A stretch of DNA of 64,000 bases from NCBI RefSeq assembly GCF_012567685.1, contig NZ_CP046184.1, positions 354,422 to 418,421 on the forward strand. Direction: 5' to 3'. The notes beneath the pieces are model-generated. The model was not told the origin of the DNA and ran no database searches. It saw only the letters and a program-made list of their open reading frames with translations. Each line of letters starts with the position of its first letter. Within the stretch, counting starts at the first letter, position 1. Below, piece by piece: positions 46,714-52,030 of this stretch. Made by a program: the position numbers and the translations under genes. Origin of the DNA: Enterobacteriaceae endosymbiont of Donacia marginata. Lineage in GTDB: Bacteria; Pseudomonadota; Gammaproteobacteria; Enterobacterales; Enterobacteriaceae.

Positions 46714-48747
46714 ATGAAAATCATTAAAGTAGTATTTAATAATGCTATTATTTATAAAAAATTTGATTATTTATTATCTAAAAATATACCAATCTATATT
46801 GGATGTAGAGTAATAGCACCTATAAAAAAAAAGAATTATATAGGAATAGTCATAAAAATACAAAATAATTCTAAAATATCTATAAAAAAATTAAAATTTT
46901 TACATAAAATTTTAGATAAAACATCACTTTTTAATTCTTTAATTTTAAAATTTGCAAGTAAAGTTTCTAAATATTATCAATTTCCTATTGGATTAATTTT
47001 ATTTCAAATATTACCAATTTTTTTGAGAAAAAAAAATAAATATGTTTTAAATTTAAAAAATAATTTGCAATTTAATAAAATTAATATGATAAATAATAAT
47101 AAAATAATAAAATTATATAATAATAAAAATAAAAAAAAATTTATTATTAATAATAAAAAAAATAATATATTAAATTTTTTTCAAAAAAAATATTTTCAAC
47201 CAAATTTTTTTGTTTGGATTACACAAGATAATATTATTTTTCTTGAAAAAATAAATATTTATTTAGATCTTATAAAAATTATTTTATCTCAAAAAAAACA
47301 AATTTTAATAATAGTACCTCAAGAATATAATTTACTAAATTTATATCAATATTTTATGTCTAAATTAGATATTTTAATCTGTTTATTATATTCAAATTTT
47401 TCAAATAAAAAAATATTATCAATTTGGGAAAATATAAAAAATGGGACAATATCAATTATTATTGGTACAAAATTTACTATTTTTACACAATTTTTAAAAT
47501 TAGGATTAATTATTTTAATAGAAGAACATAATTTTATATATAAAAAAACAAACATATTTAAATATAATATACGAGATATTGCTATTTTAAGAGCAAAAAT
47601 AGAAAATATTCCCATAATACTATGCTCTAAAACATTAAGTTTAGAAACATTATATAATATTAATATAGGGAAATTTAAATTATTATTTCAAAATAATAAA
47701 AAAATATTATATAAAAATTTTTTTAAATTTAAAATATTGGATATAAATAAACAAATATTACAGTTACAATTATTTTCTAAAATTTTAATTAAAAATATAC
47801 AAGTATGTATTGAAAATAATGAACAAATTATTATTTATAATAATCATCAAGGTTATTCAAAATTAGTTTTCTGTTTCTTTTGCAAAAAACCATTAAAATG
47901 TATTAATTGTAATACAAATTATATTTTTTATAAAAAATTATGGAAATTATATTGTATATATTGTAAAAAAAATATTAGTATGTTAGATTACTGTCCTTTA
48001 TGTAAAAAAAATTTTTTTATACCAATTGGTATTGGAAATGAAAAATTAATTGAGTTTTTAAGGAAATTATTTCCTAATATATTACTTTTAAATATTACCA
48101 ATAAGAATTTTATAAAAAAAACTTTATTAATTAAAAATAATAAACCAGCTATAATAATAGCTTCTCAAATTTTATATAAAGAATATTTTTCTTTTTTAAA
48201 AAATAATTTAATTATTATTTTGAATATAGATAGTGTTTTTTTTTCAAAAAATTTTAGAGCAATAGAATATTTTTCACAATATATTTTTAATATATTAAAT
48301 AATCATTTAGATATAAAAAAAAAAACAATTATTATTCAAACACATTATCCGCAAAATAAAATTATTAAAAAAATTTTTAAAAAATATAATACATATTTTG
48401 ATATATCAAATTTTCTTTTAAAAGAAAGAGAAATGATGTTATTACCACCTTTTACTAATCATATTATTTTAATATTAGAATCTAATGATAAAAAAATTTT
48501 ATTAAATTTTTTAAATATTTTAAAAAAAAAAATTATATTTAAGTATATAAATGAAAAAAATTTTTTTATTATTGGACCTTTATCATTAATACAAAATAAA
48601 AGGAAAGGATTATTTCGAAAACAAATTATTTTACAACATATTTTTAAAAAAAAATTACAAATTATTATAAAATATATTATTTCTATTTTTAAAAAAATTA
48701 TAAATTCTAATAAAATAAAATTGATAATTAATGTTGATCCAACATAA
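46714..48747 (+). CDS. priA: PriA replication-restart protein with degenerate helicase motifs
   Basis: PriA reloads the replisome at stalled forks. The 677-residue protein (732 in E. coli) aligns over its length: KFDYLLS, GCRVIAP and QFPIGLILFQILPIFLR in the N-terminal DNA-binding part, all eight zinc cysteines (CFFC, CINC, CIYC, CPLC), and REMMLLPPF at the end. The ATPase motifs have decayed: Walker A GSGKT reads FLEKI, Walker B DEEH reads IEEH, motif III GSAT reads CSKT, and the motif VI QVAGRAGRAG is NILNNHLDIK. The frame is open with no stop, so the protein is probably made but not a helicase. The place beside rpmE is as in E. coli. Confidence 0.9.
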   Translation: MKIIKVVFNNAIIYKKFDYLLSKNIPIYIGCRVIAPIKKKNYIGIVIKIQNNSKISIKKLKFLHKILDKTSLFNSLILKFASKVSKYYQFPIGLILFQILPIFLRKKNKYVLNLKNNLQFNKINMINNNKIIKLYNNKNKKKFIINNKKNNILNFFQKKYFQPNFFVWITQDNIIFLEKINIYLDLIKIILSQKKQILIIVPQEYNLLNLYQYFMSKLDILICLLYSNFSNKKILSIWENIKNGTISIIIGTKFTIFTQFLKLGLIILIEEHNFIYKKTNIFKYNIRDIAILRAKIENIPIILCSKTLSLETLYNINIGKFKLLFQNNKKILYKNFFKFKILDINKQILQLQLFSKILIKNIQVCIENNEQIIIYNNHQGYSKLVFCFFCKKPLKCINCNTNYIFYKKLWKLYCIYCKKNISMLDYCPLCKKNFFIPIGIGNEKLIEFLRKLFPNILLLNITNKNFIKKTLLIKNNKPAIIIASQILYKEYFSFLKNNLIIILNIDSVFFSKNFRAIEYFSQYIFNILNNHLDIKKKTIIIQTHYPQNKIIKKIFKKYNTYFDISNFLLKEREMMLLPPFTNHIILILESNDKKILLNFLNILKKKIIFKYINEKNFFIIGPLSLIQNKRKGLFRKQIILQHIFKKKLQIIIKYIISIFKKIINSNKIKLIINVDPT

Positions 48748-50800: not shown

Positions 50801-52030
50801 ATGTTAAAAAAAAATTTCAATCTCTAGATATTAGTATTCTTACTACTTTCCAAAGGAAATCGTATATATTTTACTTTATCTAGAGTATTATATACTTTAA
50901 CTTTATATAGAAAACTTTAATTCAATATATTCTTGAAACATTAAAAAATATTAATAATTTAATTAACAATATACCATATCGTATATGGTTTTGATAAAGA
51001 AAAACTTAATAAGTTTTTAAAAAATGAAACATATATTAAATGGATATATTAACTTTGGAGGTACTGTAAAATAATTTTTGTTAAATTTTAATAAAAATAA
51101 AGATATTTTAATATTATATAGAGATGTTCCTCTAATTTTAAAAAAACAATAATATAATTATTATAATGAAAAACCTAAAAAAGGTATTTCTGTATTTTCA
51201 GTAACAATAAATAATTCTAAAGAATATGGTAAAATTTATGTAACAAAAATAGAGATATAATTGGTATTATTAAACATATAGAAACAAATTAAAAAGAATT
51301 AAAAATATTAATACTGGGATATTGATTATTAATATTATTTATTTAAAATAAATAAATTAATAGAATTAATAATAATAATTTAAAATCAGAGTTTTATATT
51401 ATTGATATTATTAATTTATCTTATAAAGATAAAAAAAATATTAGATGTATAAATTTTAAAAATTTAATAGAAATTAAAGATATTAATAATAATCAATTAA
51501 CACAATTAGAAAAATTATATCAAAAAAAACAAATTAAAAAATTACTTATTAATGAACTTAAAATTTTAAGTACAAATAGATTTAATTTATAAGGTTCTTT
51601 AAAATATTGATTAGATATTATAATAGAAGAATATGTATTAATTAAAAATTTTGTGAAATTAGGAAATAGAGTAATAATAAGTAAAAGGTGTATACTAAAA
51701 AATAATATTCTTACAAACGATTATAGAATACTTCCTATTCAATAATAGAAAATATAATTTTAAATAAAAAATATCAAATTAATTCTTTTAGTTGTATAAA
51801 TCAGAATCATAAAATAGATAAAAAATAACATTATTAATTTCATAAATAAAAAAATGATTTTTTATAAAAAATTAAAAATAATAGTTTTATTTATATAAAG
51901 TTCAAAATGAATAATTTTATTAAAAACTATAATTATAAGTTAATTATAATAAAATTAATAAATAATAAAGTTTAAAAGAAATATTAATTGTAATATTATA
52001 ATTAAAAAATTTTTCATTTATAAAATTAAA
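50801..52030 (+). pseudogene. glmU: Decayed glmU (UDP-GlcNAc synthesis)
   Basis: No open frame survives, but fragments in shifting frames follow E. coli GlmU in order. They include KNETYIKWIY, DILILYRDVPLIL (GlmU: DILMLYGDVPLI), KPKKGISVFSVTINNSKEYG, IIGIIKHIETN, INTGILI, SEFYIIDIINLSYKD, EIKDINNNQLTQLEKLYQK and IEEYVLIKNFVKLGNRVI. At least ten in-frame stops (TAA, TAG or TGA) and several frameshifts lie between them. The left end (LDISILTTF at the uridyltransferase start) and right end (about 52030, in the acetyltransferase repeats) are approximate. GlmU makes UDP-GlcNAc for peptidoglycan and lipid A. Its loss is striking beside intact murI and murJ. Confidence 0.85.

Follow-up and report, generated by a model that had tools for sequence, protein, structure and literature searches.

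The priA locus

The window analysed here is a stretch of 64,000 nucleotides from the chromosome of the Enterobacteriaceae endosymbiont of Donacia marginata (NZ_CP046184.1, positions 354,422 to 418,421). It carries an uninterrupted frame of 677 codons, running from ATG to TAA in the ORF listing, which encodes priA and is followed by mnmG; the preliminary description had reported an open frame of this length, and its limits are exactly those given in Table 1. The longest stop-free run in composition-shuffled windows was 122 codons, against 677 for priA. The product scores 274.9 bits against TIGR00595 (cut-off 230; E 1.2e-81), its closest solved structure is the Klebsiella PriA chain 6dcr (E 1e-90), and both PriA domains, PF17764 (3'-DNA-binding, 3'BD) and PF18074 (C-terminal, CTD), exceed the Pfam cut-off. 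The NCBIfam subfamily NF004065 gives the top score and the PRK14873 group scores poorly, while an AlphaFold model of PriA built with three sequences is of low confidence (pLDDT 44). A second intact priA, which according to the preliminary description would remove the interest of the locus, was absent in a genome-wide search of the symbiont's own 467.6 kb (a chromosome of 462,406 bp and a remaining 5,198 bp), leaving a single copy. RNA-seq of the D. marginata symbiont has been published, with reads mapped to its complete genome (PMC12508126). The window also holds a tmRNA gene adjoining an smpB-like ORF.

Table 1. Features of the priA locus and of the divergent gene near secA; positions are those of the window unless a contig is named
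Feature	Position	Strand	Basis
tmRNA gene, tag peptide ANNQNYALAA	44085..44447	-	
priA, motor-dead replication-restart protein, 677 aa	46714..48747	+	ORF; family and structure matches; single copy
3'-DNA-binding domain, residues 6-101, kept	46729..47016	+	PF17764 E 1.4e-18; omega 0.11
Eroded winged-helix/linker, residues about 106-165, most relaxed part	47029..47208	+	alignment; omega 0.26
Ex-Walker A, GSGKT to FLEKI, residues 176-180	47239..47253	+	alignment
Ex-Walker B, DEEH to IEEH, residues 269-272	47518..47529	+	alignment
Ex-motif III, GSAT to CSKT, residues 304-307	47623..47634	+	alignment
Zinc cysteine-rich region, residues 387-430, 8/8 cysteines	47872..48003	+	alignment; omega 0.11
Ex-motif V, GTQMLAKG..F to ASQILYKEYF (GTQMLAKG to ASQILYKE, residues 483-490)	48160..48189	+	alignment
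Ex-motif VI, GRAGR to NNHLD, residues 529-533; both arginines gone in 24/24 congeners	48298..48312	+	alignment
C-terminal domain, residues 579-676, kept	48448..48741	+	PF18074 E 1.4e-8; omega 0.13
glmU fragments, decayed	51087..51736		
Divergent dciA-like gene, outside the window	L100:2664-3140 (about G000:C1:143163-143639)	-	upstream of secA

Domain retention and motif loss

Homology to the PriA family covers the 3'BD, the helicase lobes, the cysteine-rich region (CRR) and the CTD. In the window's clade the winged-helix domain (about residues 106-180 in E. coli) has dwindled to a short low-complexity linker; basal congeners, whose proteins have 716-729 aa compared with 677 aa here, retain it. 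An earlier statement that the protein aligns with E. coli PriA from end to end is thus correct as regards full-length homology but slightly too strong, because the winged helix survives only as this linker; similarly, of the N-terminal DNA-binding segments said to be kept, the 3'BD is clearly recognisable (PF17764) but the winged helix is eroded.

None of the superfamily-2 helicase motifs I, II, III, V and VI matches its consensus. Loss of Walker A, the Walker B aspartate and motifs III and VI had been noted before, and to these motif V is now added. The EEH of motif II stays, as do some motor-lobe residues such as IGT at 300-302 (reference numbering), so the motor lobes have been remodelled and not deleted. 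As also described previously, all eight zinc cysteines are present (residues 387, 390, 396, 399, 414, 417, 427 and 430), with the spacing typical of PriA.

Conservation and selection among reed-beetle symbionts

PriA was compared across 24 reed-beetle (Macropleicola-type) symbionts, comprising the window's genome and 23 others. An open priA frame of 675-729 codons is present in 23/23 of the latter, and the gene is intact throughout the set at 46-89% protein identity. The eight cysteine columns are invariant in all 24 and the Walker A motif is absent from all 24; at motif VI, position 583 is Asn in every sequence and position 586 is Arg in none, while the Walker B aspartate persists in two. Loss of the ATPase motifs most likely preceded the divergence of these 24 symbionts. 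Retention of EEH in motif II (22/24) and of a lysine in 13 of the 24 Walker A remnants might point to a non-canonical ATP site with weak ATPase, in which case PriA would still be a motor. We regard this as extremely unlikely, given that none of the 24 retains Walker A or the arginines of motif VI, that the motif remnants vary between genera with no common new motif, and that the K230R change alone abolishes the ATPase of E. coli PriA (PMC4504706).

Selection was estimated by pairwise codon likelihood (own implementation) fitted jointly to seven phylogenetically independent congener species pairs, omega being restricted to the window's genus as the equivalent fit in other genera was saturated. 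The whole gene gave an omega of 0.13, with values of 0.12-0.14 in each of the seven pairs, and by domain the estimates were 0.11 (3'BD), 0.26 (WH/linker), 0.12 (HD1), 0.11 (CRR), 0.145 (HD2) and 0.13 (CTD). This heterogeneity is significant (2 delta lnL 28.6, five more parameters), the WH/linker being highest by far. The motif remnants have an omega of 0.09 in the joint codon fit, and the erased motifs now form new conserved sequence. For the window and its nearest congener, omega=1 was rejected (2 delta lnL 80). Fitted together, priA had an omega of 0.095 and mnmG one of 0.037, indicating that constraint on priA is weaker than in a core enzyme. The domain-wise comparison of dN/dS proposed in the preliminary description therefore yields 0.11-0.26 among congeners and neutral rates nowhere across the gene. 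Its argument that selective motif loss beside zinc retention speaks against neutral decay was right in its outcome, since neutrality is rejected, but the former motor lobes (0.12-0.145) are constrained as much as the zinc region and selection is not limited to the latter.

The small, AT-rich and eroding genome, the missing motifs and the shrunken winged helix of the window's clade are features expected if priA were a young pseudogene in slow neutral decay, that is, unneeded and just not yet broken. This is very unlikely because all 24 frames are intact despite their divergence, omega is uniformly low in the independent pairs, and neutral simulation with the third-position composition of priA, run to half the divergence from the nearest congener, produced about 40 in-frame stops. 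A yardstick for real decay lies within the window itself, 2.3 kb from priA between mnmG and nrdA, where the fragments of glmU contrast with the maintained priA; the ATP synthase complex, a neighbour of glmU in E. coli, has been lost in Donacia symbionts (PMC7289800). The PriA of these symbionts is thus almost certainly motor-dead, as judged by sequence, and under purifying selection.

Replication partners

The preliminary description invoked an E. coli precedent, in which PriA changed at the Walker A lysine can still assemble the primosome, and suggested checking for the genes of its partners. That precedent acts via PriB, DnaT and DnaC, and a search for all three found none in the symbiont genome or its genus, so the E. 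coli-type PriA-PriB-DnaT-DnaC pathway does not carry over. DnaB is encoded in 24/24 congener genomes and DnaA was found in 0/24; profile searches gave no match above cut-off for DnaC or DnaT in the 24, and an E. coli DnaC query returned nothing in three congeners, while true DnaC was recovered in many relatives. Matches to PF01695 were considered as DnaC candidates, and the ORFs checked there proved to be Lon, ClpX and adenylate kinase. The PriB model matches only SSB in reed-beetle symbionts, including the PriB-family match at G000:C1:21045-21305, which is SSB and not PriB. In E. coli PriB docks on PriA at Asp438, Thr482 and His483 (PMC10175261), and all three positions are substituted in the symbiont protein. 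RecA, RecB, RecC, RecD and SSB are present in the symbiont genome, P-loops are retained in DnaB, RecA, RecB and RecD, and SSB retains the acidic tip DDLPF.

With the classical partners absent, the PriB-docking residues lost and the SSB tip retained, PriA might have no part in loading DnaB and act instead in a structural or regulatory DNA-binding role, as a fork-protecting, SSB-associated or zinc-dependent scaffold, for example in recombination. We consider this improbable, as DnaC and DnaT are kept side by side in ten other genera with motor-dead or largely eroded PriA, which ties the dead protein to helicase loading, and as the PriA of D. radiodurans directly binds DnaB (PMC4504706).

The helicase loader of the reed-beetle symbionts is most likely DciA, based on the locus beside secA and on matches to PF05258 and PDB 8a3v. 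A gene of 155-161 codons lies upstream of and divergent from secA in 7/7 congener species examined. DciA (PF05258) is the one Pfam family that it matches consistently, with E 8.5e-5 to 0.21, slightly short of the cut-off, and with no match in one of the seven species; the window genome's own protein gives 0.21, which is weak by itself, compared with 8.5e-5 in a relative. For one congener the protein also finds the DUF721 chain in PDB 8a3v (E 4.6e-7). In gammaproteobacteria lacking dnaC, dciA sits between lpxC and secA (PMC5109545); lpxC was not found in the stretch carrying the gene here. Falling below the Pfam cut-off, genes of this kind may be annotated as hypothetical. The presence of DnaC and DnaT in ten other genera and of the putative DciA here suggests that the PriA motor can be lost whichever of the two loaders is present. 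No report of contact between PriA and DciA was found in the literature surveyed.

Recurrence in other reduced symbionts

The search covered 392 genomes of this family, and PriA was extracted from 31 reduced genomes. Four genera (g58, g63, g108, g147) retain the motor motifs intact, five (g91, g40, g140, g72, g148) show partial erosion, and twelve more besides the window's own (g6, g43, g55, g77, g83, g88, g98, g115, g116, g126, g144, g178) have lost them. All 31 sequences have 8/8 cysteines, so that motor loss with a complete zinc site is shared by 13 reduced-genome genera including the window's, and does not belong to this symbiont alone. Eight motor-intact PriAs share 173 invariant columns; 14 of these, the eight cysteines plus six more, are retained in all 24 motor-dead sequences compared. 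With the motif columns left out of the PriA tree, parsimony requires the change from kept to lost motor at least three times, a count that is uncertain because compositional bias and long branches may have joined lineages falsely. The accessible literature, which took in few subscription papers and no supplementary files, yielded no report of a symbiont PriA that has lost its motor.

Several of the reduced genomes have further peculiarities. Members of genus g126 (L071, L075-L077), with genomes of 0.3 Mb, encode a motor-dead PriA with 8/8 cysteines, and in-frame TGA codons in their PriA and DnaA frames indicate that they probably read TGA as an amino acid. In three genomes of the same family (G029, G030 and G132; 0.5-0.6 Mb), no DnaA, DnaC or DnaT was found and no convincing PriA, with either no match or weak ones around E 1e-14 to 1e-16; replication start there must do without them. 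One genome of genus g43 (G065) has DnaT and DnaC with only a weak helicase-like match for PriA, and is the sole exception to the co-occurrence of DnaT with PriA among the genomes checked.

A putative route to helicase loading

We posit, with a rough probability of 0.6, that PriA works without ATP, recognising forks and D-loops and using DciA to hand over DnaB. D-loops and stalled forks would be generated by RecBCD and RecA and bound by PriA, which would expose lagging-strand DNA without ATP and so mark the site for DnaB; DciA would then open the DnaB ring and place it at the marked site. The 3'BD, the remodelled fold of the motor lobes, the zinc module and the CTD are the parts that selection maintains. 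In the E. coli system, lagging-strand DNA becomes enclosed when fork binding moves the CRR and lobe 2 (PMC10175261); the symbiont PriA has retained the parts that this switch requires and lost the motor. We infer that it binds DNA, lacks ATPase and contacts DnaB and/or DciA. An ATP-independent loading scaffold, as suggested in the preliminary description, is the best functional reading of a protein that is motor-dead and maintained, except that such a scaffold would be neither peculiar to this symbiont nor dependent on the E. coli partners.

More tentatively, these symbionts without DnaA could start chromosome replication by recombination, with D-loops made by RecBCD/RecA, a motor-dead PriA recognising them and DciA placing DnaB. 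The joint proposition that PriA is such an initiator and that its motor was discarded independently in several symbiont lineages is likewise possible rather than probable. Speculatively, where DnaA is missing, replication may have no start other than the PriA/DciA route. If so, PriA would be the replication initiator of the cell, and its essential role everywhere would lie in recognising forks and in loading. The conservation pattern suggests that the essential job of PriA in shrunken symbionts is marking forks for helicase loading, not unwinding.

The importance of the PriA motor in nature has so far been argued from few mutants, and here evolution repeats the experiment in many lineages, the zinc cysteines being kept without exception in every examined reduced symbiont that lost the motor and retained priA. 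The value of the finding lies in this recurrence and in the DnaA-less setting. Reed-beetle symbionts possess a very small natural set for replication start (PriA, a putative DciA, DnaB, SSB and RecA/RecBCD), and as DnaA, DnaC, DnaT and PriB are missing, the old question of how replication starts in symbionts without dnaA becomes testable.

Comparison with known PriA pseudohelicases and mutants

Loss of the motor motifs in a gene under selection, the mark of a pseudohelicase, is found in the window PriA, which is predicted to be a PriA pseudohelicase of a kind already known from Deinococcus, here more extreme. Actinobacterial (mycobacterial) PriA is annotated as lacking helicase motifs and, like that of the symbiont, is a natural family member without the standard ones, although it belongs to a different lineage and sequence subgroup.

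The PriA of D. radiodurans has no ATPase or helicase activity, and binds forks and its own DnaB; neither PriB nor DnaT is clearly present in that genome (PMC4504706). It resembles the symbiont protein in its defective Walker A and B motifs and in the lack of clear PriB and DnaT in both genomes, and the symbiont protein is likewise predicted to bind forks and to lack ATPase and unwinding activity. In the free-living phylum of D. radiodurans the reported changes mainly affect Walker A/B residues (K to R in GKT; PMC4504706), whereas in the symbiont nothing is left of motifs I, III, V and VI, the host cell is a DnaA-less insect symbiont and the loss recurs in many genera. Direct DnaB binding is a feature of the D. 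radiodurans protein and is at most predicted for that of the symbiont. E. coli PriA K230R and K230A are ATPase-dead and yet assemble the primosome and load DnaB in vitro (PMC4504706; PMC10175261), K230A supporting DnaB reloading in a reconstituted reaction (PMC10175261). These are laboratory point mutants that act via PriB, DnaT and DnaC, all three of which are absent in the symbiont.
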